Below are positions 18,504-39,429 of a DNA stretch of 49,874 nucleotides, one piece after another. Source of the stretch: Paracoccaceae bacterium (GTDB taxonomy: Bacteria > Pseudomonadota > Alphaproteobacteria > Rhodobacterales > Rhodobacteraceae); contig CACPHA010000004.1 of assembly GCA_902633655.1 (NCBI GenBank), positions 1 to 49,874 of the forward strand. The letters are read 5' to 3'. A program made the position numbers and the translations under genes. Numbering within the stretch: position 1 is the stretch's first letter; the number at the start of each line of letters is the position of its first letter. The notes beneath the pieces are model-generated. The model was not told where the DNA came from. It did not search any database and saw only the letters and a program-made list of their open reading frames with translations.

Positions 18504-19685
18504 ATGACCCAGATATTGAGAGATGCTTTCTTATCTCAAAAAGTTCAAGCGCATCTCTCGGGTATAATTCTAAATACGCTCAACGCTGTCGCCTTTGTTG
18601 GATACCGAAACAAAAATCTAGATTTGGGACAATACAATTATCTGAAAAACGATCTAGAAGGCGCCAAATATAGCGACGTTACAGTGGTAGCGCGCTTATT
18701 TCGGAACCGATACGCATTCACAGACTCGAAAAACCTCTCACGAAATAAGACTATTTTAAGCCTGGGGCGTAATATCAAAGACGACTGCGAAATATTTCTA
18801 AAAAATAACGAAAATCAGAAATCTAATAATATTAAAAAACTTTATAACATACTACGCGAGTTAGATCCGTTAGTACAAAATTTGTTATATTATAGAAATT
18901 TTTGTTCGCATAATATGAAAGTTGTTGACCAAGTGGGCTGGAAATTAGCGGTAATCGCAGGCGTTGTCAGAACATGCGAAATCGCTTTAAACGATAAAAG
19001 TACATACCAACTTAATTCTGAAATTATTGAGGAATTTAAGTCGTTCGCATCTGACCCATCCGGAGGTTTTGCTACATCTAGTGCGCCTGAAGCACTTACA
19101 AAAGCTGAGTATGCTAGCAATACTCCGGCTGTAAATAGGCATGATGAAAAGGATTTATCGTCGGTATATGATAAATTGGATGGAATAATCTCCGAGTTAT
19201 CACATTTAACCGATTTTGGGAAAAAACTGGACAAGCTTATTTCTGTTCAAAATAAGACCGATGCGATATCGGCTTCTCAGGTGCCTCAACCCAAAGAGAC
19301 AAAAATCTTACAAAGTTCAGAGACGGTCGAAGAAGTCAATTCAAATGATGATGAAGACGCAAGTGACTCAAGCTATGATGACGTGAACACAATCACCCCT
19401 GAAATATTGCGCCAACGTTTGCAAAATATCAGCGTGACAGTTAAGAGCCGTTACCAAAATACCCCTGGATTTGGAGCCCGCACAAACTTACTACAGGTTG
19501 CAAACATTGGAATAATTTTGCAACGTGAGCCATCATCACTGGAGGAAATGCTTTCTTTTGAGGAAATTCGCTCGAGATTGGATCTAAGTAATCCCCTAAT
19601 TCTTGAACAAATTTCAGAATATGGCGAAAATCTTACGGACTTATTCTCTAATGTTCTTTGGGAGTCGGCATTCGAATTTAGTTAA
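18504..19685 (+). CDS. Hypothetical protein with a HEPN-like N-terminal region (RNFCSH), first gene of twin-module operon I
   Basis: 393-aa ORF; LLYYRNFCSHNM matches the HEPN Rx4H pattern; 17 nt upstream of the GHKL gene. Confidence 0.6.
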   Translation: MTQILRDAFLSQKVQAHLSGIILNTLNAVAFVGYRNKNLDLGQYNYLKNDLEGAKYSDVTVVARLFRNRYAFTDSKNLSRNKTILSLGRNIKDDCEIFLKNNENQKSNNIKKLYNILRELDPLVQNLLYYRNFCSHNMKVVDQVGWKLAVIAGVVRTCEIALNDKSTYQLNSEIIEEFKSFASDPSGGFATSSAPEALTKAEYASNTPAVNRHDEKDLSSVYDKLDGIISELSHLTDFGKKLDKLISVQNKTDAISASQVPQPKETKILQSSETVEEVNSNDDEDASDSSYDDVNTITPEILRQRLQNISVTVKSRYQNTPGFGARTNLLQVANIGIILQREPSSLEEMLSFEEIRSRLDLSNPLILEQISEYGENLTDLFSNVLWESAFEFS

Positions 19686-19702
19686 CTGCGAAAGAATATA
19701 AG

Positions 19703-21640
19703 ATGTGGAAATTTCAGATTAATAGTTCCGGGGAAACACAAGGATGGAATGACAACGGGATACAGACATTCCGCCACAACATACTCAAAAGCTTAGCTAG
19801 AGAAATTATTCAAAACAGTATTGATGCCCGGCAGAACAATGGTGGGCCAGTTAGAGTCGATTTTAGGTTAGAACGGCTTTCTAAGATTTCCATACCAGGT
19901 GTAGATGAATTAGAAGCACGCCTCGTTGCCATCAAGAGTGCTGATGGTAAAAATGAGGGTGATGCACATATTAGCGAGATGGAAGAGGCACATTCTTGTA
20001 TATCAAAGTCTGCTTTGAATGTGCTTATAATTTCTGACTCCAACACTAACGGTATGCCATATTATGGCGAAGGCACAAGTTCACCGTTGTTCAGATATAT
20101 CAAAGCCACTGGTAGCTCTGGTGGCTCGCAGGCTCGGGCCGGTTCACATGGTTTAGGTAAAGCGGCTCCATTAGCATCGTCGCCATTGAGAACAATTTAT
20201 GTTTCTACCTTTTGGGACGACGAAGGCGAGATAAAACGCCATTACCAGGGCAGAACGAGGTTGATGAGCCTCACTACGGAGGATGGTATTACAAGTGGAA
20301 CTGGATATTGGGGTACGCATGAATATCAGCCATTAACTAAGTTAGATAACACTAATTTTGACTGGTTAAAAAGGACTGTGGCCGGCTCGACGGTCGCAGT
20401 TCCTGGGTTTCGAACGAATGTCAAAGAATGGTCGGCAATTTTAGCTGGCTACATCGTTTCAGAATTTTTCGCAGCGCTGCACACTAACGCGCTCGAAGTG
20501 ACAATAGTTGACTCAGTTAGGCAAGGAAAGGCGCAAACCTATACTCTCAACTCAAGAACTGTCAGTAATAGAAATAAGTTTTTCAAAAGTGAATTCATAA
20601 GGGAAGAAATTCAAAATTATTTGAATAAAAACGATGATGCTCTGTCGGATGCAGAGTATTTTTACGATTGTCTCAATGAAAGTGACTCGGAACTCATTAA
20701 ACTCATTTTTGATGTTCAGCATCTCGGATCAGTTCGATTAAGGCTCAAGATTCTAGAGGGTGCGCCAAGAAAAGTTTGCCTGATCCGGCGCGATATGAAA
20801 ATTACTGATAATCTGCAAACCAAAGGCGGAATGTGGTCACCAGGCCACGTGCCCCCCAAGATCAAAGATTTTTGTGGCGTCATTGATATTTTGAGCGAAG
20901 AGGGCGAGCGTATGATCCGCTCAATGGAGCCTCCACAACATGATAATTTATCGCCAGACAATATGCCCGAGGTAGACCGAGAAATAGGCCGTGAGCTTTA
21001 TAGAGAGTTAAGTCAAAAAATAAGAAATATTGTGGAAGAGTATGCAACTACTGAAATTGCACAGGAGCGCATAGTATCAGAACTAAGTGAATATTTTTAT
21101 GATGACACAGAATTCGATGCAAACGCTCCCACAGTTACTCAAGAACAGGATCCAAATGGGCGAAATGTGATAAGTTTAGCGCCACTTAAGGCAAGAAAAA
21201 CTAGTCCTCAAAACGAAGTCGCAATTGAAGATAATGATGATGGTGAGGGCGGAGCTGGTGGAGAAGATGGAAGCGGCGGTGGTGGAAGTTCTGGGCACGG
21301 TGGCGGACGGGGTACTGGCACGGGTGGTACAGGTACTAAAGGCATTTCCCAAAATAGAATAAAATTACAGCGTCAACGAATATGGAAAAAGGGTAACAAA
21401 TACAGATTATCAGCCGTGGTAGATGAACCTTTCATCGGAAATATCCAAGTTTTCGAAGTAGGGATGATCGGTCATGAGTTAATAAAAATCAAGTCTACAA
21501 ATATTGGTGAACTAAAAAGGGATGGCGTTGTTGCCGTCAAAAATGACGATTTCGTATCTAATAAATTGATGTTAGATTTAGAGTTTGAAAACGCGCCGAT
21601 CGGTGGACTAACTGTCGTAGCCTCCAAGGGTGAACCATGA
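19703..21640 (+). CDS. GHKL/HATPase-fold ATPase (MutL/MORC-like class), operon I copy
   Basis: LAREIIQNSIDAR (N-box), NVLIISDSNTNGMPY, AGSHGLGKAA; paralogous in layout to 27254-29167. Confidence 0.8.
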   Translation: MWKFQINSSGETQGWNDNGIQTFRHNILKSLAREIIQNSIDARQNNGGPVRVDFRLERLSKISIPGVDELEARLVAIKSADGKNEGDAHISEMEEAHSCISKSALNVLIISDSNTNGMPYYGEGTSSPLFRYIKATGSSGGSQARAGSHGLGKAAPLASSPLRTIYVSTFWDDEGEIKRHYQGRTRLMSLTTEDGITSGTGYWGTHEYQPLTKLDNTNFDWLKRTVAGSTVAVPGFRTNVKEWSAILAGYIVSEFFAALHTNALEVTIVDSVRQGKAQTYTLNSRTVSNRNKFFKSEFIREEIQNYLNKNDDALSDAEYFYDCLNESDSELIKLIFDVQHLGSVRLRLKILEGAPRKVCLIRRDMKITDNLQTKGGMWSPGHVPPKIKDFCGVIDILSEEGERMIRSMEPPQHDNLSPDNMPEVDREIGRELYRELSQKIRNIVEEYATTEIAQERIVSELSEYFYDDTEFDANAPTVTQEQDPNGRNVISLAPLKARKTSPQNEVAIEDNDDGEGGAGGEDGSGGGGSSGHGGGRGTGTGGTGTKGISQNRIKLQRQRIWKKGNKYRLSAVVDEPFIGNIQVFEVGMIGHELIKIKSTNIGELKRDGVVAVKNDDFVSNKLMLDLEFENAPIGGLTVVASKGEP

Positions 21641-22482
21641 AATATGATCATAACAAGTCATACGGCTATCCAATATTAAGACCTGTTTTGGACGATGTAA
21701 TTAACGAAAGTGATTACGTTGGGTATAGTTTTGAACCGTCATTCAATCCAATGGTGCTACCAAAAAATCCAAAAAAACTTTGCATAGAAGTAGAAACATA
21801 TTTGCAGGAGCCAACTTTAAAAATTGCAGTCATAGAGAAAAGGGCTAAAATCAAGCTAATCGTAGCATGCAGAGAAACTTTCTTTACAAAAAGTTTTGAT
21901 ATTGGTGTTGATATGGACACCGTAGAATTACAAGCTGAGGATGTGCACGGTCGAGTTGAGCTAACACTTTTTGTTATTGCTCAAGAGGATTTTCAGTTAT
22001 CTAGTGATAAGTTCCACCCTGATTTTGATGATGAAGCTTTCAATATTATTAAGGGTAATATCCTAGCACAATCTCTCACCCAGGAAATTTACATGCAGAA
22101 AGAATTTTTCAGAAATGCTAGATCTATTATATCTATTTCCGCAAATGATAGTTTGTCCGATGGAGAATATGTAGTTTCGCTTGATAGTGATTACATCGAG
22201 ATTTCAATGAATTCAGCGTTGAACGCTAAAATTAATGGCTTGCTAGAAACTAATGCTAATGAGCCAATAGAAGCATTAAATTCTATTTTTGTACCGGCAG
22301 TGACACATGCTTTACACGAATTAAATTCGCGTGAAGTGCTTGAAGAATACAAATGGGCACAGGTCTTAAAAATGCAATTAGAAACGATCAAAAACCAGCA
22401 ACCGATTAGAGATGAAGTATATAATCAGGCTCAAACTTTGTTTAAAAAGCCGCTTTCAAAAATCGCCGAGATATCTGAATGA
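21637..22482 (+). CDS. Middle protein of the GHKL module, operon I copy
   Basis: 4-nt overlap with the ATPase gene; shares the SYGYPILRPVLDD.../...CRETFFTKSFDIG...D.HG..E layout with 26425-27264 (SFPYPVLTPIDQGDDYIDGSFE...CAETLFRKAFLLG...YDFHGGVSFTPMIV). Confidence 0.7.
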   Translation: MKYDHNKSYGYPILRPVLDDVINESDYVGYSFEPSFNPMVLPKNPKKLCIEVETYLQEPTLKIAVIEKRAKIKLIVACRETFFTKSFDIGVDMDTVELQAEDVHGRVELTLFVIAQEDFQLSSDKFHPDFDDEAFNIIKGNILAQSLTQEIYMQKEFFRNARSIISISANDSLSDGEYVVSLDSDYIEISMNSALNAKINGLLETNANEPIEALNSIFVPAVTHALHELNSREVLEEYKWAQVLKMQLETIKNQQPIRDEVYNQAQTLFKKPLSKIAEISE

Positions 22483-23246
22483 CAGAGATCCCAATTATTT
22501 CGCAGAATATGTTGAGCTCACTTTACACTAATGTTGAGGTTAACAAAAATTCGTATTTTAGAAATGGCCTAGAGAAAATCATAGGAGATTCACTCAGGAA
22601 ATTACATAATACGACAATCAAGCAAAATTTATCAGTCGATCTTCGTTGGAATGCCCATGCGCTAGCAGGCGAGCTTGATGCCGTAAATTCAAGAATTTTG
22701 TATTCTTCATTGGAAGGAATGACACCCTATCAGGCTCGAGATGAACGTATTTTGGCGGCAATAACGCATCTGTATGCGCGTGAATATACTGTGCAACGTC
22801 ATAAGATTGAAGAAAATGATACAGATAAAATTAAGCGACACTTCTTCGCCCGAGGAAATGGATCACGAAGTATAGAACGTGATAATTCAATTGGGCGGTT
22901 ATGGTGGAATGGCTACCTTATTTCCCGATGCAAGGAAGGTGAAGATTTTGACGAACTATTGTCTATATTATGTACCGATACCGATTTCAGAGCTCAACTG
23001 ATAGAGCGCCCCAGTGCTTCTACAATACCTCAAGCTGCGCTTGCTATTTTGATATGTAAGAAAAATTTCCAAACGCAAGAACCACACAATGAATTCTTTA
23101 AAGGACGAGGCTCTGAAGCCCCTTTTCGAAGATGGTTTCGTAAAATTAATCTTTACGGTGGCGCGAAGTTGTTCGCATCGATGGAATACGCAGAACTGTA
23201 TAAACTTTTCTGGGACGCCATGATAGAAATCAATGACCGTGAATAA
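22479..23246 (+). CDS. DUF6339-like protein, operon I copy
   Basis: FFARGNGSRSIERDNSIGRLWWNGYLISR...LIERPSASTIPQAALAILI, homologous to the 25691-26425 product; 4-nt overlap upstream. Confidence 0.65.
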   Translation: MTEIPIISQNMLSSLYTNVEVNKNSYFRNGLEKIIGDSLRKLHNTTIKQNLSVDLRWNAHALAGELDAVNSRILYSSLEGMTPYQARDERILAAITHLYAREYTVQRHKIEENDTDKIKRHFFARGNGSRSIERDNSIGRLWWNGYLISRCKEGEDFDELLSILCTDTDFRAQLIERPSASTIPQAALAILICKKNFQTQEPHNEFFKGRGSEAPFRRWFRKINLYGGAKLFASMEYAELYKLFWDAMIEINDRE

Positions 23247-23574
23247 ATCTATTGATTTTATAAACTATTCTTCTTGCTCCAAATCTGTGCAATTCACATT
23301 CCCAAACACGAAAATATTTTATTTTTGAATTCTTATAATGAGATCTTACTTCCAAATCACGACTCATAATCGCACTCACTTTAGATCTCCACAAATCAGA
23401 TATATTCCATTCTTTGCACGCATGCCCATGCCAAAAACATCCATGTACAAATATTGCACACCTGCCTTGGTTTACTAAAAAATCAGGTCGACCAAAGTGT
23501 TGCGTAGCTCTCTGCACATATTTAATTTCTGCCTTTTTGAGTTCAACGGCAAGTTCTTGCTCCAATGCACTCAT
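23230..23574 (-). CDS. vsr: Very short patch repair endonuclease (Vsr)
   Basis: RPDFLVNQGRCAIFVHGCFWHGHACKEW, a hallmark Vsr motif. Confidence 0.88.
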   Translation of the reverse strand: MSALEQELAVELKKAEIKYVQRATQHFGRPDFLVNQGRCAIFVHGCFWHGHACKEWNISDLWRSKVSAIMSRDLEVRSHYKNSKIKYFRVWECELHRFGARRIVYKINRFIHGH

Positions 23575-23579
23575 TCTTT

Positions 23580-25631
23580 TCAGCTCACAGCATAAGGCCG
23601 TAAATTTGATATAAAAACAATTTCACCACCCTGTTTTTGATATTGGTGAACAAATTTAGCGAGTTGTCTTAATTTAAATTCTGGGACGTGCTCTCCCCTG
23701 CGTAATTTTTCAATGTCATTATTTTTTCCCTCAGACATCTGTCTTCCAATAAATGTCTTTATGTTTGACCAACAGTCAGGATGAATAGAAAGTAATTTAA
23801 CTTCATCCACTAAGTCCTCCAAGATTGCGCGTTCTTTCTCGGCTTCCGCTCTGATTTTATCAGCAAAATCTTTTGCAACAATGGTACCAGGCAACTCTGA
23901 TAGTGAAAGTATATCAAAATTTTCTAACATATTCCGCCAACATTGTTCATTTTTGGCGTAGGTCGTAGGATTGCCAGCGTAACCGAGGAGGTGTGCATTT
24001 ACGCTTTCGGCTACATCCAACAGGACCTGCAACAATAATTCAGGTGTTTTTTGTTTCTTCCACAAAGACATAACATCTATGGAGAGCTCGTGCTCTTTCA
24101 GAGAATATGCAAACCACGCAACACTATAGGCAACAACGTTTGCTGGAAATCCTGAGTACCATGGTTGTTTGGGTATTTCTTTTCTAAAATCGCGATAGAT
24201 CATCGTTTTTATAATTGCGTCCAAAAAATACTGCTTATTATATTTTTCTGGAGTTTTTTCCATTTCTATAGATTTTGCGAAAATTTTAAAATTACCCTGG
24301 GCACCCTTACTGACTTCGTGGGGTTTTATATCCCAAGCGTTCAATACTAAGGCCAAGTCTGTTTTTGTAAGCATTTTGGGTTTGGGGTATGTTCTTTGAA
24401 ACTCTCGTTTTTTAGCAGGTGTTAAATCGCCCTGCTCATTCAAATATTGCCCACGAGAGCGTTCATAAAACCAGCGTTCACTTCTGGCACTCCCTTGGAT
24501 TATTGGGGGAATAGTGGTTCGTGAAAATTCTTCAATACGCTGGTGGAAGGGACTGTTCGAAAATAAATCTGCCTCACTTACTGGATTTTGGCTGTTCGCG
24601 AACTTTGCGATATTTGGAACAATCGTGTCAATTATTCCTTCATCGGTTATCACATTCAATTTCATTTGAACATCGACGCCCTTGAGATCGATCCCCTCTT
24701 TGTGTGCGTTATATATTTGCGCAGTAGTTTGACCACCGTTCACAATTTGCAAATTTTCTAATTCCAAAATTTTATTTTCGTCAGAAAACCTTATACCCTT
24801 TGCGGTCGAGGTAATACCATTGTTATATGCAAAAAATCGCTGAGGGTTTTCACTGAGCGTGATCTTTATTCCTTTATTAACCTTTGAGCGATTTTGCAGA
24901 AAGCTACGTACATTTTGCTCCAATACACGTGATCTGTATCGACCGTAAATTTCAGCCAGCTTATCCGCGGGCATGACTACAAGATAAGAAGTTAAATCGT
25001 CAGACTTTGAAGCTTCCAATGCCGCAAGCGGCGCATCTTCAAAGCTTATAATGATTTGCTCTCGTTCATTCCCGGAGCTTTCCACTTCAAAAAAACGTTG
25101 TAAATCCCAAATTCCAACAGCCACTTTTTTGCCAAAAAGCGTACCTTTTTCACTATGTTCATACCTTTTGCTTAACAGCTTATTTGTGATAAAAATCACC
25201 TTCAATGTTTTTGTTCCTGGCCATTGATTTTTCAATTCTTTTATCAAAAAGAAAGTGTCAGTTCGGGCTAAAGAGGAGCTCCAGCCATCATCTTTTTCAA
25301 ATACTTTTTTAAGAAAGCGCTGCACTCTCTGAAATGCAGGTTTTAGATCTGAATTTGTCAAATTTTTAATATTGTCCTGCTCCATCTCTTCAAAAAGATT
25401 CACAAACAAAGTAAATTCGCCAAAAACAGGATCGAAGGAATACGCCGATATCGTGGATTTTATCTCATCACGGTCGTCAACGCTTAGTATTTCGTAGGCA
25501 TCGATCTCACCTGTTTCAGTAACACGATCGAGAGAACATTCTAAAAAAGCGTTGGACTTAATCTGACCCGTCTCAATAGCTATTTCCCGTACTTCTTCCA
25601 TGAGTATGTCAAAATATTCTACTAATTCCAT
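23580..25631 (-). CDS. AIPR (abortive infection phage resistance) family protein
   Basis: RFFAYNNGITSTAKGIRF...LQIVNGGQTTAQIYNAHKEG, AIPR-type core. Confidence 0.8.
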   Translation of the reverse strand: MELVEYFDILMEEVREIAIETGQIKSNAFLECSLDRVTETGEIDAYEILSVDDRDEIKSTISAYSFDPVFGEFTLFVNLFEEMEQDNIKNLTNSDLKPAFQRVQRFLKKVFEKDDGWSSSLARTDTFFLIKELKNQWPGTKTLKVIFITNKLLSKRYEHSEKGTLFGKKVAVGIWDLQRFFEVESSGNEREQIIISFEDAPLAALEASKSDDLTSYLVVMPADKLAEIYGRYRSRVLEQNVRSFLQNRSKVNKGIKITLSENPQRFFAYNNGITSTAKGIRFSDENKILELENLQIVNGGQTTAQIYNAHKEGIDLKGVDVQMKLNVITDEGIIDTIVPNIAKFANSQNPVSEADLFSNSPFHQRIEEFSRTTIPPIIQGSARSERWFYERSRGQYLNEQGDLTPAKKREFQRTYPKPKMLTKTDLALVLNAWDIKPHEVSKGAQGNFKIFAKSIEMEKTPEKYNKQYFLDAIIKTMIYRDFRKEIPKQPWYSGFPANVVAYSVAWFAYSLKEHELSIDVMSLWKKQKTPELLLQVLLDVAESVNAHLLGYAGNPTTYAKNEQCWRNMLENFDILSLSELPGTIVAKDFADKIRAEAEKERAILEDLVDEVKLLSIHPDCWSNIKTFIGRQMSEGKNNDIEKLRRGEHVPEFKLRQLAKFVHQYQKQGGEIVFISNLRPYAVS

Positions 25632-25690
25632 GAATCGCCCCCGCCGAAAAAGCAGGAAATCTTACACTCTAGAAAAGTTTTGTAAAGGTT

Positions 25691-26425
25691 TTAATTCAAC
25701 GAATATGCATGACGATAGAGCGGTTCCAGTAAAGACGTAAGTGCATCATCACTTAGGCTAGTCAGATTTGCTCTTTTACTAATCATATCGATACTTTTCA
25801 TAAAGGACCGAAAATTGTCTCTATTATAATCGCAATCAGCTGCAAAATATTTCTGCGAAATCTTTAGTATTGAGGCCACAACATTGAAGGCACTTGCAGA
25901 GGATGTGCGCTCAAGAAGACTGGAGCGATAGTCACTATTAAAAAATAGCATCTCCAATACTTCATCAGATGTTGCGCCTGGTACCAGATTTGCTACACGT
26001 CCCATCCACCAAAGTCGTGAAATAGCATTATCACGAATCCTGTTCCTATTATTTTTTGCGAACCAGTGGTCATTCACATGGTTCGGACGGTTTTGTGACT
26101 TTGCTAACGGCCATCGTCTACGAACGTATTCAGAAAGTTCTGCAAAACAAAGAGTTGTCCATAATCGTTCGTCTGTCGCTTCAGCAGGGGTTAATTGGCT
26201 TAGAAGTTTAGAAATGATTATACAGTTTTGACTATCCATATTTTTTTCTTGGGAGACCCCTCGAGGCATAATAAGTGGAAATTCTGTATGTAAACTCACC
26301 TTAATCTCAACAAATTTGAGACTAAGTTGAGCTGAAAGCTCAGTAAAATTAACTTCTACAAATTCGGGTGTGAGGGTAACTGCGCGTCTAAGCACTTCTA
26401 GACTATCTGAGGTTAATACCTGCAT
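25691..26425 (-). CDS. DUF6339-like protein, operon II copy
   Basis: HWFAKNNRNRIRDNAISRLWWMGRVANL...SSLLERTSSASAFNVVASILK. Confidence 0.65.
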   Translation of the reverse strand: MQVLTSDSLEVLRRAVTLTPEFVEVNFTELSAQLSLKFVEIKVSLHTEFPLIMPRGVSQEKNMDSQNCIIISKLLSQLTPAEATDERLWTTLCFAELSEYVRRRWPLAKSQNRPNHVNDHWFAKNNRNRIRDNAISRLWWMGRVANLVPGATSDEVLEMLFFNSDYRSSLLERTSSASAFNVVASILKISQKYFAADCDYNRDNFRSFMKSIDMISKRANLTSLSDDALTSLLEPLYRHAYSLN

Positions 26426-27264
26426 TAGCCTTCTCCCAAGGAAGGTAATTTTGCCAGGCCAAGATGGCCTATAAGACTTTGAACCAAAATATTTACCTCA
26501 TTAAAATCAAATTGTTTTGGGACGGAAAGTTCTCGCTCATTGAGTTTTTTGACCAGTGCGTTCGCCCATTTGTACTGCAGAGCGTCTTCATTGAGCACAA
26601 GCTCCTGAATTGCTAGCACCAAACAATCTTTAAAAATGGTCATCGCAAAAATTGGCTCTGACTTACGGTTTTTTGATAGCAGAGTCCACTGCTCTCTTAA
26701 TTTTTCACCCATCGCAATGTAAATAAAATTTGGTGTCGTTTCTATAGAATAAGTATTAGGATCAAGCGTATGGTCAGTCCTTATTCTCACCAATGTCTCA
26801 AAAGATAATTTTATGAAATCTACGTTTTTTGCCACAGAGTTATCTATTGCCAATAGATCTCCTGGCATTAATTGGAAATATTGCGTCTCATACTCTGGGT
26901 TGAGGTCTACGCTGGTATATTCCTCCAGTCTGTCTGCAACAACAATCATGGGAGTAAAGCTCACGCCCCCATGGAAGTCATAGGCATTCAAATCAATTTC
27001 TCCTCTCGGACCTAACAAAAAAGCTTTTCTAAACAGCGTTTCCGCGCAATTGATTTCGATAACAAAGTTGGCGCTCCCCCGATCTATCAATTCTTGTATT
27101 TCGACCACAGACAGCATGTTGATGTAAGAAAGCGAAAATGTTCCATCGTCATTAACATTTTCTGGGAAACCAAGTACGCATTCAAACGACCCATCTATAT
27201 AATCGTCACCTTGGTCTATTGGCGTGAGGACTGGGTATGGAAATGACTGCGTATCAAACTTCAT
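26425..27264 (-). CDS. Middle protein of the GHKL module, operon II copy
   Basis: Same position, size and motif layout as 21637-22482. Confidence 0.68.
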   Translation of the reverse strand: MKFDTQSFPYPVLTPIDQGDDYIDGSFECVLGFPENVNDDGTFSLSYINMLSVVEIQELIDRGSANFVIEINCAETLFRKAFLLGPRGEIDLNAYDFHGGVSFTPMIVVADRLEEYTSVDLNPEYETQYFQLMPGDLLAIDNSVAKNVDFIKLSFETLVRIRTDHTLDPNTYSIETTPNFIYIAMGEKLREQWTLLSKNRKSEPIFAMTIFKDCLVLAIQELVLNEDALQYKWANALVKKLNERELSVPKQFDFNEVNILVQSLIGHLGLAKLPSLGEG

Positions 27265-29167
27265 TTAATTTCGCTTCTAGTACATATTGAGTGACATTTC
27301 TGTCAAAACATAGTTCGATACTATGCCTAACGTTGATGTCTAAAAAAATTTCAAGGATAAAACATACGTTGTTCTCTACAACAAAACCAATTGGCTCAGC
27401 ATCTTGCTCTCCCACGGCGAATATCTGAAATTGGCACTTTCCACTTAGCGGACTGTTGAAAAATATTTTAGCAGTATTGTTGGCGTAATGCGTAACTCTT
27501 AAATTGGTAGCATTGACGGATTTTGCTCTGCTAACCGTCTGCTCGGTGAACGCCATAGTGCCATCTATTTGTTTAACAACGGGTGGTTTCGATGGTAACT
27601 GATTAACTCCTGTAAATTTTCGCCTGCTCGCTAGTGAAAACATATCCTGTATAAAATCTAGCTCACCTTCACGCATGGATTGGTGATCAACCTTTTTGTT
27701 CACAACAGAGTTTAACGTGATTTTACTTCCTCTTTCGGCACCCTTACTGTTCGTATTCAAAGATTCTGAGAGCCCTCCGAAAATAAACGATAATCCTTCT
27801 AACTCTTCTTCAGCATTGATGGAAATAGATGCATGAGTTGCAATTACTTCTCTTATTTTTGATGTGAATTCTTTGTATTTACGCTTAGCTTGCGTGCGCG
27901 CTTTTTGGAATTTTATCCTATCAAATTCAAAATTATCATGCTTGGGATTTTCTAAATCTTTTAACAGTTGTGATCCCTTATCCCCTTTAACGCAGGCGAA
28001 GAGGTCAAAATTTCGAGTGCCTCGAAATCTTTCGAGACCGTTTGCTTTTTTTGTTATGAGCATGCCGTTCTGTCGAGCGATGCCGACGTTTCGCCCCTCG
28101 ACCGCGTTGCCAATTCTAATCCACCACAATACCTTCCCAAAATTTGGGATTTCCTGAGCGTTATGGAATTGGTAGTCAATTATAGTCTTTATTGACTCAA
28201 AGCTTTGTTTTATCTGATTTTTATCTGTATCTTCACTTGAAATATGTAGATTAGTAAGACACTCTTCATAAACTTCTTTAAGGTTTTCGCGGCTGATACA
28301 TTCATCGCCAACGGTCACTTCCAACTCATTTGTCATAATAGCATAGAAAAAGTTAGCTAATACCAAGATTTTTGTTTCTAAATAATCTGCCGAAGTGAAC
28401 CCACTATAAGGAACAAAAATTGATGTGCCCGCACTTTCTGAAAATGTGTTTCTGAGAGAGCACGACCATTCTGGGACGTTGTGACCCAGGAGAGGTAGGT
28501 TACCATCTTTTCTTCCAAAAAAACCGGTTCCCTGCGTGTAAACACCTGGGTTTGAAGGATCCTCATGTGTTTGTAAGATACATTTACCCTGAAATCGAAT
28601 TTCGTCTCCTTGACTGGTCGTAGTTTTCGTATGATAAAAAACCATACGCACGTCGCTTAAAGCAAAAAGTGCTTTCGACCCATGTCCAAAACTTCCCAAT
28701 GATGCCGCGTTACTTTTTTGACTGATACCTGCACCTTTAGTCATCGCGAACCAACTACCCCAAGGCTTGTCAATCGGTCCTGTTAAACCCGTAGTGTTTT
28801 CATCTTGAATGCACAATAAATTTACATTGGCTGTAGAATCAATTTTGTTGATTGCGTATTCGTAGAATTTTACTGCGGGCGGTAACTTTTGCCGGCGAGC
28901 AATTTTGACGCAGCTTATAAGGTCATTTCTTATTTCAGCAAAACCACTAAATTTTGACGTAGGTACTTTCTCAGCTTTGAATTGAACTCTCACAGCGCTC
29001 GATCTAAGTCGCTTTGCATCCAAAGAATTTTGGATGGTCTCCCGAACAATTGACGACAGCATATTACCTGAAAAGGTATCTATAGCGCCGTCATTCGCAC
29101 CAGCAGCTATACCGTCATTATTAGGCGGAAAGTGCCATCCTATCATTAGATAATCTTTCTTTGTCAA
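27254..29167 (-). CDS. GHKL/HATPase-fold ATPase (MutL/MORC-like class), operon II copy
   Basis: IVRETIQNSLDAKR, NLLCIQDENTTGLTG, LGSFGHGSKALFALSD. Confidence 0.8.
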   Translation of the reverse strand: MTKKDYLMIGWHFPPNNDGIAAGANDGAIDTFSGNMLSSIVRETIQNSLDAKRLRSSAVRVQFKAEKVPTSKFSGFAEIRNDLISCVKIARRQKLPPAVKFYEYAINKIDSTANVNLLCIQDENTTGLTGPIDKPWGSWFAMTKGAGISQKSNAASLGSFGHGSKALFALSDVRMVFYHTKTTTSQGDEIRFQGKCILQTHEDPSNPGVYTQGTGFFGRKDGNLPLLGHNVPEWSCSLRNTFSESAGTSIFVPYSGFTSADYLETKILVLANFFYAIMTNELEVTVGDECISRENLKEVYEECLTNLHISSEDTDKNQIKQSFESIKTIIDYQFHNAQEIPNFGKVLWWIRIGNAVEGRNVGIARQNGMLITKKANGLERFRGTRNFDLFACVKGDKGSQLLKDLENPKHDNFEFDRIKFQKARTQAKRKYKEFTSKIREVIATHASISINAEEELEGLSFIFGGLSESLNTNSKGAERGSKITLNSVVNKKVDHQSMREGELDFIQDMFSLASRRKFTGVNQLPSKPPVVKQIDGTMAFTEQTVSRAKSVNATNLRVTHYANNTAKIFFNSPLSGKCQFQIFAVGEQDAEPIGFVVENNVCFILEIFLDINVRHSIELCFDRNVTQYVLEAKLNEV

Positions 29168-30155
29168 AACTGATATTCTTTATAACTTTTTCGACCACCC
29201 CTGCATGTATAGCATTTCCAACCATCGTATAGCGGGCAGCACGCGGAATAGAGTCTGGAAATTTTATTTCAGTTTCTTGGTATCCTTGCATGCTAAGGCA
29301 CTCCGATAAAGAGAGCTTACGAATGCCCCATTTATCCTTTACAAAGGGAACATTATGTCCTCCACCACCCATGTTTGCGGTGAGCGTTGGACAAGTATTA
29401 GGAGGGCACGCGCGTACACCTACCCTGCGAATTTGATAGAGCCGATCAATACCGTTTTTGCTAATCGATTGGTTAAGCATTTCAAAATACTTGCTTTTTT
29501 TATCTAAATACAGTGTTTCTTCTTGTTTTTCCTCGAGGTTCAGATACGCAGTCAACTCTTTTGTTTCCTCTGACAAAATATTTTTGTGCTGGAAATAATT
29601 TCTTTTAAAATGTGTGGAATGATAGGCCACGATGTAGAGCCGGTCTCGGCTTTGTGGAGTTCCTGAGATTTCTTTGCTTTTCAGTATAGTCGCCTGAGAT
29701 TCACTCACCCAGTAGCCCAGCATCCTTAACTCATGGATAACTACCTGTAATCTGGAGCCACCATCGAAGATCTTTAGGTTCGGTACGTTCTCTAACAGGA
29801 TGACTTTTGGCGGATTCGTAAGCTCCTTAATTATTCGTGGAATTTCGAAAAAAAGCTTTCCGCGCTCATCATCAAATCCCAAGTTGGTTCCTGCATTTGA
29901 AAAAGACTGACAAGGGAAACCTGCACTTAGTAAATCAATAACTTGGTCGGGCTTGGTTTCTTTAGCTAGGGATAACTCTGTTATGCATGTCTGACATACT
30001 GGGACATTAGGAAATGTATGCTTTATCGTTGCAACGCAATACTTTTCAACGTCAGTAGCGAAAAGAGTATTATACCCAGCTCTGTCAGAGGAGGCAATAA
30101 ATCCCCCTAGCCCTGCAAAAAGCGCAACGTGTGTACGCACAATACTCCCCTCCAA
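29121..30155 (-). CDS. C5 cytosine-specific DNA methyltransferase (Dcm family)
   Basis: LFAGLGGFIASSDRAG, SAGFPCQSFSNAG, VILLENVPNL, SGTPQSRDRLYIVA, MVGNAIHAGVV. Confidence 0.93.
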   Translation of the reverse strand: MEGSIVRTHVALFAGLGGFIASSDRAGYNTLFATDVEKYCVATIKHTFPNVPVCQTCITELSLAKETKPDQVIDLLSAGFPCQSFSNAGTNLGFDDERGKLFFEIPRIIKELTNPPKVILLENVPNLKIFDGGSRLQVVIHELRMLGYWVSESQATILKSKEISGTPQSRDRLYIVAYHSTHFKRNYFQHKNILSEETKELTAYLNLEEKQEETLYLDKKSKYFEMLNQSISKNGIDRLYQIRRVGVRACPPNTCPTLTANMGGGGHNVPFVKDKWGIRKLSLSECLSMQGYQETEIKFPDSIPRAARYTMVGNAIHAGVVEKVIKNISFDKERLSNDRMALSA

Positions 30156-30827: not shown

Positions 30828-31307
30828 TTATTCCAAGATTGGTCTCTTTTGGTCGTCTAGCTTAAGAAGCGTCAGTTGCTGATTGTAAAATTTTTCAAGA
30901 TCTGTATTTACAAAATCAATCAGCCCGTCTTCTTGCATTTCCGGATGTTCAAAATACTTACGTCTGCAATCTTCTGCGACGGGATTAAATCCAGTTATTT
31001 GAGTGTATTCATCCAAATTAAGAGAATATCTTTGTTTAATTAATCCCACCGCAAACAAAATTTTAGCTTGCGATTTGAAGATCAAGTCCTCTTCTTCTCC
31101 AGCCATTTCAACAAGATCGTATCCTCTGTATTTCTGCAACTCTGATTCTAAAAAAAGATCAAAAACTTTTATACGCGCTTCACTTTCGCTCTCTTCCCAA
31201 GCTTGCTTTAAGTTTGGAAAATGAAAAATGAAATCGAAGTAATATAATGGTGTATCTCTGTCTGCGCATAGAATCGCAAAATCGTAGGTGGACCGATCGT
31301 GGTCCAT
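30828..31307 (-). CDS. Hypothetical protein (159 aa), possibly a remnant
   Basis: ORF only; the flanking sequence looks degraded. Confidence 0.4.
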   Translation of the reverse strand: MDHDRSTYDFAILCADRDTPLYYFDFIFHFPNLKQAWEESESEARIKVFDLFLESELQKYRGYDLVEMAGEEEDLIFKSQAKILFAVGLIKQRYSLNLDEYTQITGFNPVAEDCRRKYFEHPEMQEDGLIDFVNTDLEKFYNQQLTLLKLDDQKRPILE

Positions 31308-31578
31308 GATCGTTGGGTAGTATAATCGCTTTGCGGCACCATTACCAAAATCGCCTCTAAGATCAGCGGAGCGCCAGTTAGCGTATTATCCCCTTTAGTG
31401 AAAAACATCTGACAGAATTTGCCGAAACAACAGTTCCGATGCGGTAGCACCATCGTGGTCAAAGTCATCGCGTTTTGTTGTACAGGGTCTGATACTCAGT
31501 TTATGCCTAACCAAAACGGCTTCTAATCCTACTCAAATATTGATCGAAGGTGATTTCTTCGTTTCTATACCAATCGTA

Positions 31579-32061
31579 TTAGATTGGGTCATAATGATGT
31601 CGGCGCGCCTGAAGCATTACAGGATATTTTCCAGTTACCGCTTCGTATTTTGCAAGCGTCATGGATTGATGGTTTTCTATAGACCCTAAACCCAACGCTC
31701 CGACACATTTCGACGCAAAAACTAGTCCTGTCCTGAATTCTTCGCACTTTGAAATAGAAATACTGTGATCTCTTTGAATGTACCCATATAAAGCAATGTC
31801 AAAAAGCTGAATACATTCTCCAGCGCGACTGTTGCTGAATATCTGATCTGATTTTTCCTGAGTGATTGAAAACTCCCAAAAACTATGTAGCTTACCTTCT
31901 TCAATAACAAACCTCCCGAAGTCCTGATTAAGCTCAAGTAACTGATTTGGATAGCGATCAAGGTTAAATTCAGTACGATCAATGTGACGAATGTAGGCAA
32001 AACCAAGTCTTTTAGCGTCATTCTGATTAGGCTTAGTTTTAATGAATGAAGTTATACCCAT
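31579..32061 (-). CDS. Hypothetical protein (160 aa)
   Basis: ORF only; no family recognised. Confidence 0.45.
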   Translation of the reverse strand: MGITSFIKTKPNQNDAKRLGFAYIRHIDRTEFNLDRYPNQLLELNQDFGRFVIEEGKLHSFWEFSITQEKSDQIFSNSRAGECIQLFDIALYGYIQRDHSISISKCEEFRTGLVFASKCVGALGLGSIENHQSMTLAKYEAVTGKYPVMLQARRHHYDPI

Positions 32062-32695: not shown

Positions 32696-33991
32696 ATGTC
32701 TCTTTGCGTGGGAAAAGTTCACCTCTCGGACATCACGAAAATAAATTCAGAACTTAGGGTTCATTCCCCTGCCCAACGCAAAAAGGCACGGCGGTTATTT
32801 GAACGCCAAGGAATTGTGACACCCATCATTCTGGATGAGAACCTAAACATCATTGATGGCAGACTTCGTTTTGATATTGCTCTAGAGCTTGGCCTAAAAT
32901 CGTTCAACTGCATAATTTTGACAGGTTTGTCAGAGACCCAGAAAAAAGAACTGGCTCTCAGTCTCAATCGACTTGGCGAAGATACCAAATGGGACCCAAA
33001 CCAGCTAAAACTGCACCTCGAAGCTATATTGGAATTTAAAACAGATCTTTCTTTTACTGGATTTGAACAAGCAGAAATTGATGCTGCACTTAGCTTTCAA
33101 ATTATTCCAGATCAAAACCCCGAAGATCTGTCACCTCCTTCTGATCCTATCTCAAGACTTGGCGATGTCTGGCGCATTGGTGAACATCTGCTTATTTGTG
33201 GTGACAGTCTTAGCTCCACCAATGAGCTAAAACAGTTTATTGATGAGCCGGCAAAGCTAGTTTGCGCTGACCCACCTTATAATGTGGAAGTTCAGGGCCA
33301 TGTCAGATTGAACACGGGACACTCGGAATTCCAGATGGCCAGTGGAGAAATGAGCGATGAGGAATTCACAACATTTCTGGATCAAGCAATAGCATCTTGC
33401 CTACCATATACTTCCGCCAACGCACTTTTTTACATCTGTATGGATTGGCGGCATTTAACGCATCTTACTGCAGCCGCTTTAAGTAATAATCTTATCCAAC
33501 AGAATCTCTGCGTATGGTCAAAAACAAATGCTGGAATGGGGTCTTTTTATCGCTCTCAACACGAGCTTATTGGTGTCTTCAGCAGAAGCGCAGAGTTCCA
33601 AAATAATATTCAGCTTGGCAAGTTTGGAAGATATAGAACCAATGTATGGACCTACCCGGGAGTTACCTCTTTTGGTGCCACACGCAAAGAAGATCTGGCA
33701 GATCATCCAACCATAAAGCCCACACAACTGATTGCAAATATCATTCTCGATTGCACCTCCACTGGCGATATCATTCTTGATCCCTTTCTGGGTAGCGGAA
33801 CGACTCTCCTCGCAGCAGCGCAAACAAAAAGACGCGGGATAGGGATCGAGCTTGATCCGAAATATGTGGATGTTGCCATCCGCCGGCTCAATCAAATGCA
33901 TGGTCTTTCGGCCGTGCATGTAAAAACCGGTCTTTCATTTGAGGAGCTTAAAACGAAACGCATTTATCAACGGGAGGCCACTTATGTCTGA
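32696..33991 (+). CDS. ParB-like N-terminal domain fused to DNA N4/N6 methyltransferase (phage type)
   Basis: ParB-like VTPIILDENLNIIDGRLRFDIALELG; MTase motif ADPPYNVEVQGH and DPFLGSGTTLLAA. Confidence 0.88.
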   Translation: MSLCVGKVHLSDITKINSELRVHSPAQRKKARRLFERQGIVTPIILDENLNIIDGRLRFDIALELGLKSFNCIILTGLSETQKKELALSLNRLGEDTKWDPNQLKLHLEAILEFKTDLSFTGFEQAEIDAALSFQIIPDQNPEDLSPPSDPISRLGDVWRIGEHLLICGDSLSSTNELKQFIDEPAKLVCADPPYNVEVQGHVRLNTGHSEFQMASGEMSDEEFTTFLDQAIASCLPYTSANALFYICMDWRHLTHLTAAALSNNLIQQNLCVWSKTNAGMGSFYRSQHELIGVFSRSAEFQNNIQLGKFGRYRTNVWTYPGVTSFGATRKEDLADHPTIKPTQLIANIILDCTSTGDIILDPFLGSGTTLLAAAQTKRRGIGIELDPKYVDVAIRRLNQMHGLSAVHVKTGLSFEELKTKRIYQREATYV

Positions 33992-34376
33992 AGAAGAAAT
34001 CGGTTACTGCAAGCCTCCCAAAAAGCATCAGTTTAAAAAGGGGGTTTCTGGCAATCCGGCAGGTCGCAAAAAAGGTAAGAAAAGTCTCGCTGCCGATTTG
34101 CAGAAAATCTTGGATCAGAAAATCACAATTCAAGTGAATGGTGCAAATATGCGCTTAAGTAAACAGCAGGCTTTCTTGCAAAGATTGGTCAACGACTCCT
34201 TGGCAGGAAAGACCAGCTCTGCTCGCTTGCTGGTGGATTTGCAAAAATTTATGGCCGAGCAAGCCGATCCAACTAGCATTTCAGCCGCAGCGCGCAACAA
34301 GCAAGATAAAGCACTTCTTAATTCTTTCGGCCAACTTGTCGGTCCCGATTGCCAAAAACAGTTGGAAGGTGGTTGA
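33984..34376 (+). CDS. DUF5681-domain protein (small-terminase-associated)
   Basis: MSEEEIGYCKPPKKHQFKKGVSGNPAGRKKGKKSLAADLQ; 8-nt overlap with the upstream gene; track start 33939 looks over-extended. Confidence 0.72.
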   Translation: MSEEEIGYCKPPKKHQFKKGVSGNPAGRKKGKKSLAADLQKILDQKITIQVNGANMRLSKQQAFLQRLVNDSLAGKTSSARLLVDLQKFMAEQADPTSISAAARNKQDKALLNSFGQLVGPDCQKQLEGG

Positions 34377-35800
34377 TGGTTCAAATAGACGATCAGTCGT
34401 TTAAAGATGCCCTTATTCGCTCTTCCCCGAGCTTCTTTTTGCAATGGTTTTTTCCTATTATGGAAAACTTAATTGACTATGACGCCAGTTGGCACGTGCA
34501 TGCCATGTCAGAAAAACTTATGGGGCTGTATCGGGGGCATGTGAGGCGCCTCATTGTTAATGCGCCTCCTCGATCTCTAAAAACCTCTACCTGCACAACC
34601 TTCTTCATACCCTGGTTGTTGGGCAAAGATCCTGGCCTTCAAATCATGCTGGTTACATATTCGGATGAGTTTGCAGAATACCTCGGAAACCAAGTGCGCA
34701 AAATCATGCGCCACCCTGAATATAAAAGACTGTTTTCTGATTCACAGCTAGTAAATGAGAAAGCCAGATCAACGCGGCTTAGAACCACAAAGGGGGGGAA
34801 AGTCACCATAACATCCTTCCATGCAACAATGACGGGCCTTGGGGCAGATTACATTATTGTAGATGATCCTATCCAAACCAATGATGTGCGCTCCGAGGTA
34901 AAAATGAAAGACATTATCAACCGCTTCAAGGAGGGCCTTTATACTCGGCTGAATGATCCCAAAACCGGACGCATATTATTGGTGATGCAGCGGATTCATC
35001 CAGATGATTTAACCGGAGAGCTTTTAGATCGCAGTGAATTTGAACATCTCAAGCTGCCTGCCCAGTTCAAAGAGGATACCATTTATAAAATGCCTTTTGA
35101 GAACGAGCATTTGGCAAAAGCCGGAGACTATTTAGATCCCAACCGCCTTGGAGAATTGGAAATCACACGCACGCGTAAAATGCTTGGAGAAGCAGCCTTT
35201 GCTGCACAATATATGCAAGATCCCATTTACCCGGAAAATGATCTTGTTGATTTGGATAAATTCAACTGGTTTGACCCTAATGGTCTGCATGCAAATTTAG
35301 AGGACGCGGTTTATATCCACTCTTGGGATACCGCTTTTAGCACTTCTGAAACTGCGGATTACACCGCCATTACAAAATGGGCATATAACAATAGTGGCTA
35401 TTATCTACTCGACGCGAACCGCTTTAAAGCCAGCAGCGAAGACGTAGAGCAAAGAATATTGCGTGAGGCGATCTCTGAGCAGCCCCATCGTGTCATTATT
35501 GAACGCGCCAATCATTCCATTGATTTGATTGCACGGATACATCGGCAAGGTCGAGGACGTTCCCAAGTTATTGAAGGTCGTCACGGAGGGCTCTCAAAAG
35601 CAGACCGATTTATTTCCATTCAGCACAAGATAAATACAGGACAAGTCTTCCTGGCAAAAGGAATAAGCGGCATTGATTTGTTTTTGAGCGAATTGCGTGG
35701 CTTCCCTTATGGAGCCCATGATGATCTTGTCGATAGCTTTACGATGGCACTTCGAGAGATGGGAAAAAGTTCCGGTAAAGCCATCTGGCGCATTAGCTGA
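34376..35800 (+). CDS. Phage terminase large subunit (TerL)
   Basis: LIVNAPPRSLKTSTCTTFFIPWLLG (Walker A-like), ADYIIVDDPIQTND (Walker B), WDTAFSTSETADYTAI (nuclease); TGATG coupling to the upstream gene. Confidence 0.88.
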   Translation: MVQIDDQSFKDALIRSSPSFFLQWFFPIMENLIDYDASWHVHAMSEKLMGLYRGHVRRLIVNAPPRSLKTSTCTTFFIPWLLGKDPGLQIMLVTYSDEFAEYLGNQVRKIMRHPEYKRLFSDSQLVNEKARSTRLRTTKGGKVTITSFHATMTGLGADYIIVDDPIQTNDVRSEVKMKDIINRFKEGLYTRLNDPKTGRILLVMQRIHPDDLTGELLDRSEFEHLKLPAQFKEDTIYKMPFENEHLAKAGDYLDPNRLGELEITRTRKMLGEAAFAAQYMQDPIYPENDLVDLDKFNWFDPNGLHANLEDAVYIHSWDTAFSTSETADYTAITKWAYNNSGYYLLDANRFKASSEDVEQRILREAISEQPHRVIIERANHSIDLIARIHRQGRGRSQVIEGRHGGLSKADRFISIQHKINTGQVFLAKGISGIDLFLSELRGFPYGAHDDLVDSFTMALREMGKSSGKAIWRIS

Positions 35801-37203: not shown

Positions 37204-37611
37204 ATGGCATTACTCGATTTAACTATAGCTTCTCGCAAAAAACTGATTGGTGAATGGCGGCGGGTGTTCAAATGCCGTGAACCCGAAAAAGCCGGCGCAA
37301 AGGTTTTTAGAACTTGTCTGCAAGTACAGCTTGAACGGCAAGGAAACATTCAGGCCTGCAATAAGGCCCATGCAAAGCTGATAAGCCGCCTAAAGCGTCA
37401 CGAGGCAGGCAATGGAGCTTTGGCGCCCCTTACAGGCCTTTCGCCCGGCACAGAGCTTATACGCAGCTATCGGGGGCAGACATATACTGTGACGGTTCAG
37501 GATACAGGCTTCGAGTGGAATGGGGCCCATTATGGATCCCTCTCTGAGCTTGCCACTCGTATGACGGGGACACGCAGATCAGGTCCCAAGTTCTTTGGGT
37601 TCAAATCCTGA
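37204..37611 (+). CDS. DUF2924-family phage-associated protein
   Basis: GTELIRSYRGQTYTVTVQDTGFEWNGAHYGSLSELATRMTGTRRSGPKFFGF. Confidence 0.85.
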   Translation: MALLDLTIASRKKLIGEWRRVFKCREPEKAGAKVFRTCLQVQLERQGNIQACNKAHAKLISRLKRHEAGNGALAPLTGLSPGTELIRSYRGQTYTVTVQDTGFEWNGAHYGSLSELATRMTGTRRSGPKFFGFKS

Positions 37612-39173
37612 TGCGCTGCGCTATCTACACACGCAAAAGTACAGATGAGGGATTGGAGCAGAGCTTTAATTCTTTGGATGCGCAACGGGAGGCTTGTGAA
37701 GCATTCATCGCCTCCCAAAAGCATGAGGGCTGGATCTTACATGATACATCTTATGATGATGGTGGATGGTCAGGCGGCACGCTTGAGCGACCCGCTGTGC
37801 AGCAATTGCTAGAGGACGTAAAAGCAGGGTGTATCCAAATCATCGTGGTTTATAAAATTGATCGCTTGACCCGCTCCCTAACCGACTTTGCCAAGCTCAT
37901 AGAGATCTTTGATGCGCATAAAGTGACTTTTGTCTCTGTCACCCAGCAGTTTAACACCACTACATCCATGGGACGCTTAACTTTGAACGTCCTTTTATCT
38001 TTTGCTCAATATGAACGGGAAATAACAGGAGAACGCATCCGCGATAAATTTGCAGCCTCAAAAGCCAAGGGCATGTTTATGGGTGGTAATGTGCCTGTGG
38101 GCTTTAAGCTTGGTGACCGGGAACTGTTCATTGATGAGATTTATGCGCAAGTCATTACTCAAATCTTTGAAGCCTATTTAAAGCTCGGCTCTGCAAGCAA
38201 GGTTAAAGCCTATTTACGGTGTTTGGATATTCGTACTCCAGTTCGAGAACATCGCAATGGGAAAACCTCGGGGGATAAACATTTTACGACAGGACATCTT
38301 TATCAAATCCTTTCCAATCCGATTTATATCGGAAAGGTCCGCCATCATGGAAAAATATACGATGGACAGCATAAAGCTATTCTTTCCCAAAACCTGTGGG
38401 ACCAAGTCCAAAACAAACTTGCAGAAAATGCTGCACGGCCGAAAGGCACTTCTGCTCAGCGCGAGCTGCAATACCCACTCGTTGGTAAGATATTTTCTTC
38501 TACCGGACACAGACTAGCGCCGACGACAGTTCACAAACCGACTAAGGCCAATCAAAAGAATTACTATCGCCATTATACTGTTAACAGAACACGGCGGGAG
38601 CCACCTTATGGAGAGCTAACTTCCCTGCCCGCTCCGGAAGCAGAACATGTCACATCGCTCGCACTTCAGAATCTTTTGGCCGAATTAAAAGCTGAGCAAT
38701 CAAACTTATCAGCGGATATGTTTTTGCAAAAACGGCAGGAAGTTTTGCAGCTATCTATTCGTGATCTTACTGAAACTGTGGTTCTGTTTAAGGGCCACCT
38801 AGAAGTCACGCTGTCAAAATCCATCGCAGATCTTTTAGGTTTAAAGAAAACCGTTTGTGTGTCTTATCCGATAAAGCCACGCAGCGTAGGAAAAAGAAAC
38901 AAGATCATTTTAATTGAGGCCTCTCAGAATACTCCAAATCAAGAGTTAATCCTGTGCGTTGCAAAGAGTTGGAAGTGGTATCAAGCGCTTTCAAAAGGAA
39001 AAGTCAGATCGGTTCAAGAGCTCGCGAAGGAAGAGAAAACAACTGTTGAAACCATTACACGCAATCTACCGCTTGCCGCCCTCAATCCAGATCAGATTGA
39101 AAAGCTTCTTACAGGCCATCATGCGCCTGATCTTAGCGTGGCAAAACTCCTTGCCGACCCAAGCCTCATTTAA
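37611..39173 (+). CDS. Large serine recombinase
   Basis: MRCAIYTRKSTDEGLEQSFNSLDAQREACEAFI...VVYKIDRLTRSLTDFAKLIEIF...ITGERIRDKFAASKAKGMFMGG; TGATG overlap with DUF2924. Confidence 0.93.
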   Translation: MRCAIYTRKSTDEGLEQSFNSLDAQREACEAFIASQKHEGWILHDTSYDDGGWSGGTLERPAVQQLLEDVKAGCIQIIVVYKIDRLTRSLTDFAKLIEIFDAHKVTFVSVTQQFNTTTSMGRLTLNVLLSFAQYEREITGERIRDKFAASKAKGMFMGGNVPVGFKLGDRELFIDEIYAQVITQIFEAYLKLGSASKVKAYLRCLDIRTPVREHRNGKTSGDKHFTTGHLYQILSNPIYIGKVRHHGKIYDGQHKAILSQNLWDQVQNKLAENAARPKGTSAQRELQYPLVGKIFSSTGHRLAPTTVHKPTKANQKNYYRHYTVNRTRREPPYGELTSLPAPEAEHVTSLALQNLLAELKAEQSNLSADMFLQKRQEVLQLSIRDLTETVVLFKGHLEVTLSKSIADLLGLKKTVCVSYPIKPRSVGKRNKIILIEASQNTPNQELILCVAKSWKWYQALSKGKVRSVQELAKEEKTTVETITRNLPLAALNPDQIEKLLTGHHAPDLSVAKLLADPSLI

Positions 39174-39352
39174 GCATAAAATGTGAACTCCATGCACTGC
39201 GTTTTGCCGGAGATCCTTGGCTGTTTGAGGGGTGATTTGGGCACTTGGAGAGCTCTGAAAGTTGCTCACGATGAACAGTTGCCGCAAAAGGTATAAGCAA
39301 TTCAGCGGCATAGCTAAAATATGCAAGTGTTCGGCGGAAGTGAGAGGGTTGG

Positions 39353-39429
39353 TGGCGCACCGGGGAGGATTCGAACCCCCGACCCCTTGATTCGTAGTCA
39401 AGTACTCTATCCAGCTGAGCTACCGGTGC
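39353..39429 (-). tRNA. tRNA-Arg(ACG), CCA encoded
   Basis: GCACCGGTAGCTCAGCTGGATAGAGTACTTGACTACGAATCAAGGGGTCGGGGGTTCGAATCCTCCCCGGTGCGCCA; 7-bp acceptor stem and CTACGAA anticodon loop. Confidence 0.95.

Follow-up and report, generated by a model that had tools for sequence, protein, structure and literature searches.

Two facing three-gene GHKL ATPase cores with different partner genes in a Paracoccaceae contig

Ten genes at positions 18504-30155 of a 49,874-nucleotide (nt) stretch from a Paracoccaceae bacterium (assembly GCA_902633655.1, contig CACPHA010000004.1, positions 1 to 49,874; hereafter the window) form two facing operons, each built around a GHKL ATPase gene followed by the same two smaller genes, and they raise the question of whether this island houses a single system with two arms or two systems lying side by side. 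The best explanation, to which we assign a probability of about 0.5, is that the operons are two members of one modular family, in which a DNA-surveillance core is combined with exchangeable effectors, and that they have been stacked face to face.

Two operons around one core

All ten open reading frames claimed for the island in an earlier sequence-only reading are present at the positions listed below, and neither a Z1 helicase nor a DUF4420 gene is among them, as that reading had also said. Operon I, on the + strand, has the order HEPN-like-A1-B1-C1 and carries no methyltransferase of its own; operon II, on the - strand, has the order Dcm-A2-B2-C2-AIPR-Vsr. The overlaps of 1-11 nt claimed within the cores measure 4 and 4 nt in operon I and 11 and 1 nt in operon II, the HEPN-like gene is spaced 17 nt from A1, the AIPR gene ends 5 nt upstream of Vsr, and the two operons converge in a 17-nt tail-to-tail overlap of C1 and Vsr with no gene between. 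The source assembly, from a marine-type alphaproteobacterium, is 2.36 Mb in size and 55.6% complete. The genes, with protein lengths in amino acids (aa) and the evidence for each, are as follows.

18504..19685, +, HEPN-like gene; 393 aa, R131-N-F-C-S-H136, then an acidic linker and a C-terminal domain; orphan
19703..21640, +, A1, paraMORC2-like GHKL ATPase (PDC-M33A); 645 aa; PADLOC, motifs
21637..22482, +, B1, middle protein (PDC-M33B); 281 aa; PADLOC, BLAST against B2
22479..23246, +, C1, DUF6339 protein (PDC-M33C); 255 aa; Pfam, PADLOC
23230..23574, -, Vsr-type endonuclease; 114 aa, N-terminal ~20 residues missing; Pfam
23580..25631, -, AIPR protein with AIPR_N (MzaE/AbiU-related); 683 aa; Pfam, PADLOC
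25691..26425, -, C2, DUF6339 protein (PDC-M33C); 244 aa; Pfam, PADLOC, AlphaFold model
26425..27264, -, B2, middle protein (PDC-M33B); 279 aa; PADLOC, predicted structure
27254..29167, -, A2, paraMORC2-like GHKL ATPase (PDC-M33A); 637 aa; PADLOC, motifs
29121..30155, -, Dcm-type C5-cytosine DNA methyltransferase; 344 aa; Pfam, TIGR00675

Both three-gene cores are PDC-M33, an unvalidated phage defence candidate of PADLOC-DB v2 made up of a GHKL ATPase (A), B and the DUF6339 protein C, with adjacent A, B and C genes matching all three models in each operon (PDC-M33A, E = 8e-85 for A1 and 4e-89 for A2; PDC-M33B, E = 2e-34 for B1 and 6e-36 for B2; PDC-M33C, E = 6e-31 for C1 and 1e-33 for C2). Pfam places the two C proteins in DUF6339 (E = 3.6e-31 and 6.4e-37) and returns no confident family for the A, B or HEPN-like proteins. 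The GHKL motifs RExxQNxxDA, DxNTxG and GSxGxG are intact in A1 and A2, and the GHKL core residues are invariant across a 22-row alignment of A proteins. Beyond the ATPase region, all 20 A proteins compared also share an ExxxH motif (MEPPQHD and LENPKHD in the two copies of the window), and the MORC-specific GhXhhpXXRhl motif is absent from all 20. A strongly conserved ExxxH is the mark of paraMORC2 (Iyer, Abhiman, Aravind 2008, PMC2292703; here and below, in the excerpts of that paper on which we draw). Because ExxxH is present, the GHKL motifs are kept and the MORC motif is absent, we file A as paraMORC2-like, the position of ExxxH inside an S5 fold being assumed. The same excerpts place MORC and paraMORC genes in the neighbourhood of Dcm, Vsr and AIPR genes, and bear out the link that the sequence-only reading had drawn to MutL/MORC-type restriction-modification (R-M) islands.

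Structural comparison was less informative. Sequence-profile searches of the PDB with A, B and C returned nothing meaningful. The AlphaFold model of C2 is nearly all-helical, with a mean predicted local distance difference test (pLDDT) of 87.8, and found no fold match in the PDB or among viral structures. The B2 model (pLDDT 84.5, predicted template modelling score, pTM, 0.55) is beta-rich in its N-terminal part and helical in its C-terminal part, and its only fold matches were generic Ig/FN3-like sandwiches (best E 0.01, query TM score < 0.3). Judged by these models, B and C seem to resemble no known nuclease; a nuclease assignment for C was considered and set aside on the strength of its nearly all-helical, matchless model.

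Partners of the core in other genomes

PDC-M33A matches were found in 11 of 399 genomes of the phylum, several of them distant, and in 4 of 61 relatives, while a wider ATPase profile matched 9 of 395 genomes of the order at E < 1e-20. A scan of 85,462 species genomes yielded 18 loci in Pseudomonadota, Myxococcota, Nitrospirota and Eremiobacterota, which amount to fewer than 18 independent cases since L038/L042, L034/L035 and L040/L044 are close relatives. All 18 keep the A-B-C order with small overlaps and have a Dcm homologue no more than 10 kb away, directly upstream or overlapping in 13; Vsr occurs in nine and AIPR in one, L030 of Eremiobacterota. This last locus reads Dcm-A-B-C-Vsr, with AIPR facing and then a Z1 gene, so that operon II has a precedent and equals that arrangement less Z1: it is a recurring type. 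The locus of a same-genus relative, L046, has the order X-Dcm-A-B-C, where X (2147-3388, 413 aa) has no Pfam match and shows by eye a D...ECK motif typical of restriction-fold nucleases, which makes it a putative nuclease of that fold. Beside the Dcm of the window, Pfam recognised no cognate restriction endonuclease among the ten genes. At L038 and L043, both of the EcoRII/Dcm/Vsr type with EcoRII-C present, the core stands slightly apart from the R-M genes.

Two further observations concern the surroundings of the core. Where Dcm is not adjacent, a conserved protein of 73-77 aa (KRxKFxxLAExRV...LIxNLxNR) is encoded directly before A (L038:9735-9965, L043:9750-9971, L055:6744-6974, L056:6725-6955); it has no clear family match and is absent from the operons of the window. 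The GHKL ATPases of loci L021-L028 are more distant; most have two genes of 240-300 aa after them, Vsr or Dcm often lies nearby, and the third gene of L026 aligns to C (hhalign probability 83%), which suggests a wider family of three-gene cores.

On plasmids and viral contigs the partners are more varied. The core lies beside type I-like R-M genes in Ligilactobacillus and perhaps, judged by gene sizes alone, in Acetoanaerobium; beside AlwI-type R-M in Lactococcus and Planococcus; beside MutH/Sau3AI and Dcm in Priestia; beside a restriction endonuclease and Dcm in Paenarthrobacter; and beside Dcm and Vsr in Deinococcus. In E. faecalis the gene 23 nt upstream of A encodes AIPR, and the stretch examined has no methyltransferase or other R-M gene; in Acetoanaerobium the third gene is followed after ~23 nt by one with a DarT domain; and viral contigs carry an NYN gene (L050) or an RNase_T gene (L051) after C. 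Together these loci show a shared A-B-C core used with interchangeable partners.

Among the core loci surveyed operon I, with its HEPN-like-A-B-C order, is unusual. The R-x4-H motif of its first protein, R131-NFCS-H136, is in register with the catalytic RNxCxH segment of Abi_2, and in an Abi_2 search of its own genome this protein was the sole match (E 0.0135). HEPN (Ymh)-paraMORC fusions in R-M loci have been reported and proposed to be analogues of PrrC/RloC (Anantharaman 2013, PMC3710099). Because effectors swap at the edge of the core and such fusions are published, the HEPN call becomes more plausible; the name is a plausible lead backed by the motif, and the gene looks like one more exchangeable effector. 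The 413-aa gene of L046, tried as its counterpart, shows no similarity to it.

How the core and its partners might work

Under the modular reading, A-B-C would be the constant core, an ATP-driven DNA-surveillance complex in which A presumably forms a dimer that shuts around DNA as other GHKL clamps do, B and C would serve as adaptor or DNA-reading subunits, and the assembly would license an exchangeable effector against DNA without the host's mark. In operon II, Dcm would mark self-DNA, AIPR would most likely be the effector, and Vsr would repair the T:G mismatches that arise from deamination of 5-methylcytosine. In operon I, a HEPN-type RNase would be the effector, its activation leading to RNA cutting and then dormancy or abortive infection, and the mark may come in trans from Dcm or another methylase. 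What the sequences show is gene content, homology, intact motifs, linkage to Dcm and to varied effectors, and the independent descent of the two copies; the clamp, the gating by methylation, the licensing of effectors, the HEPN RNase activity and an anti-phage function are what we infer. Taken further, the core may tentatively be viewed as a general plug-in sensor with interchangeable effectors (AIPR, DarT, NYN, RNase-T-like proteins, restriction enzymes), of which HEPN-A-B-C would be an RNA-targeting variant without its own methyltransferase.

Several results weigh against the modular reading. A separate effector is not apparent in most Dcm-A-B-C loci; the NYN and RNase_T matches are barely above the Pfam cut-offs; and the third genes of E. 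faecalis and Acetoanaerobium, of the right size and in the right place, have no detectable homology to C. For the HEPN-like protein, the Pfam match to Abi_2 (17 bits, E 0.0075) is below the cut-off of 25.6, the hhalign comparison with Abi_2 is weak, with one of 20 shuffles scoring nearly as well, and no relatives turned up in 290 genomes of the class, in 60 genomes of relatives that partly overlap with these, or in phages, plasmids and viral contigs.

The first of these results means that the core may itself restrict. On that account A-B-C would itself do the restricting in a Dcm-type R-M system, excluding or destroying unmarked DNA, and AIPR, Vsr and HEPN would be incidental. In most of the 13 Dcm-A-B-C loci no further nuclease is recognised within the operon. 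However, the confident model of C matches none of the known nuclease folds and B yields only generic beta-sandwich matches, the core is also found alongside complete R-M systems that bring endonucleases of their own, and in E. faecalis it sits in an AIPR operon free of R-M genes over the stretch examined; we regard this account as unlikely, if one to be taken seriously.

The failure to find relatives and the Abi_2 score under the cut-off would also suit an account in which the gene at 18504-19685 is an unrelated orphan rather than a HEPN effector, and operon I a core that lost its methyltransferase. The register of the motif with the Abi_2 catalytic segment, the 17-nt spacing to A1 and the presence of other non-Dcm effector genes at the operon edge elsewhere speak against it, and make it rather unlikely. 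The HEPN arm put forward in the sequence-only reading is thus made plausible by the DarT, NYN, RNase-T-like and AIPR genes at the edges of other operons, while its HEPN assignment stays at the level of a motif.

That reading had further proposed a Vsr/AIPR arm, which is weakened as a means of attack. Dcm is secure (Pfam C5-MTase, E 5.5e-52; TIGR00675, 193 bits against a cut-off of 100.65), as is AIPR (Pfam, E 2.4e-93), which scores 283 bits with the MzaE equivalog model, below its cut-off of 1050; no other Mza model, Z1 included, matched any of the ten genes. AIPR is frequently linked to R-M, and an N-terminal HEPN toxin has been proposed in AIPR proteins (PMC3506569); such a toxin would make the effectors of the two operons parallel. 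Vsr matches Pfam (E 1.4e-14, 54.1 bits against a cut-off of 27) with its GxPD...GCFWH motifs present, and scores 66 bits with TIGR00632, below the cut-off of 97.85, from position 24 onwards. It lacks the N-terminal segment of ~20 residues (RSxxMxxIRGxxTKPE) that all nine other Vsr compared have kept, and insertion of AIPR may have cut it away. At L036, a Dcm-A-B-C locus, an EndIII/HhH-GPD glycosylase gene lies directly after C. The Mig T:G glycosylase occurs in an archaeal R-M system, and by analogy the EndIII-like HhH-GPD gene of L036 would replace Vsr, both being best read as 5-methylcytosine upkeep. Since Vsr tracks Dcm and a glycosylase takes its place in L036, Vsr is more likely upkeep for Dcm than part of an attack arm.

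The same facts invite a reading in which the core is no defence at all and acts as a MutL-like helper of Dcm and Vsr in the repair of 5-methylcytosine deamination, with the GHKL/MutL relationship (PMC2292703), Vsr in half of the 18 genome loci and the L036 glycosylase on its side. We consider it improbable: cores are also found next to type I-like R-M, or next to AIPR where Dcm is absent; the strand of operon I carries no Vsr; plasmid carriage and PADLOC candidate status fit defence better; and the Vsr of the window lacks the very N-terminus that, according to a reference title cited in PMC2292703, is needed in E. coli for MutL and Vsr to interact.

Ancestry of the two copies and their surroundings

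The two cores had been called distantly similar and not a recent duplication, and both statements hold. Identity is 25.8% between A1 and A2 (BLAST E 6e-29), 26.6% between B1 and B2 (E 2e-19), so that the middle proteins are homologous, and 28.7% between C1 and C2 (E 4e-19). In a tree of 19 A proteins, A2 groups with the A protein of the same-genus locus L046 (100/100) and A1 sits on a long branch; a tree constrained to make A1 and A2 sisters is worse by 87 log units and is rejected by the approximately unbiased (AU) test (p-AU 1.4e-43), and therefore the pair is not a duplication. The 26-29% identity and the AU test together rule out a recent tandem duplication. A wider tree puts A1 near the Dcm-A-B-C group, a placement subject to long-branch caution. 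By their sequences, the two copies are old and were acquired independently, by accretion and not duplication.

No second ATPase lies near the core in ~31 other distinct loci, in flanks of up to 10 kb, several of them cut by contig ends. The twin arrangement is thus unique to this genome in the sample, an outcome that the sequence-only reading had itself named as refuting its proposal, and with the core standing alone everywhere else the single two-armed system was not borne out. That one integrated system is at work, in which operon II senses methylation and cleaves DNA while operon I is an abortive backup sharing its parts, is highly doubtful: the convergent, overlapping layout with nothing between and the want of a methyltransferase in operon I would suit it, the missing second ATPase elsewhere and the lack of recent common descent of the cores do not. 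Two stacked systems fit better, and the face-to-face pairing looks accidental.

Both operons resemble PDC-M33 strongly in all three subunits, and differ from that entry, which models the three core genes alone, in that the core is doubled and one copy has a HEPN-like gene. The MZA defence system, reportedly MutL-Z1-DUF-AIPR as described by Gao et al. in 2020, shares with the window a GHKL ATPase and a MzaE-like AIPR; the window has no Z1 gene, its AIPR falls below the MzaE cut-off and its ATPases match PDC-M33A and no Mza model. The MORC/paraMORC proteins of R-M systems share the GHKL motifs, ExxxH, the missing MORC motif and the Dcm, Vsr and AIPR neighbours (PMC2292703), whereas the excerpts make no mention of B or C partners and no helicase is found among the ten genes. 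The HEPN (Ymh)-paraMORC fusions likewise pair a paraMORC ATPase with a HEPN RNase, putative here, in R-M surroundings, (PMC3710099), whereas the HEPN-like protein of the window belongs to another, orphan family and has a gene to itself, which shares its operon with B and C.

The core in PADLOC and its R-M setting (Iyer 2008) are already known, and HEPN with paraMORC has precedent; as far as the literature searched shows, the split HEPN-A-B-C operon, PDC-M33A as paraMORC2-like and the pattern of swapped effectors are new. Searches for DUF6339 and PDC-M33 found no papers, and the literature searched gave no tested function for the three-gene core, paraMORC ATPases having been predicted in 2008 to act in R-M systems (PMC2292703). 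The core is widespread, keeps Dcm near in the species genomes sampled and has varied effectors at its edge, so that the split between sensor and effector is directly testable by exchanging or removing one gene; the matter bears on the role of bacterial relatives of the eukaryotic MORC chromatin ATPases.

Around the island, positions 30828-32061, upstream of Dcm, hold two neighbouring genes of 159 and 160 aa that are weakly alike and have no family match. Beside it, 32696-35800 carries a phage-type ParB/N6-N4 methyltransferase, a DUF5681 gene and a terminase; homologues of this methyltransferase (42% identity) and terminase (33%) also adjoin the A-B-C core in L038. A large serine recombinase gene adjoining a tRNA-Arg gene at 37611-39429 suggests an integrated element, and the gene at 41553-42386 matches phrog_27769, of unknown function, with weak QueC-like or PAPS-reductase-like similarity.

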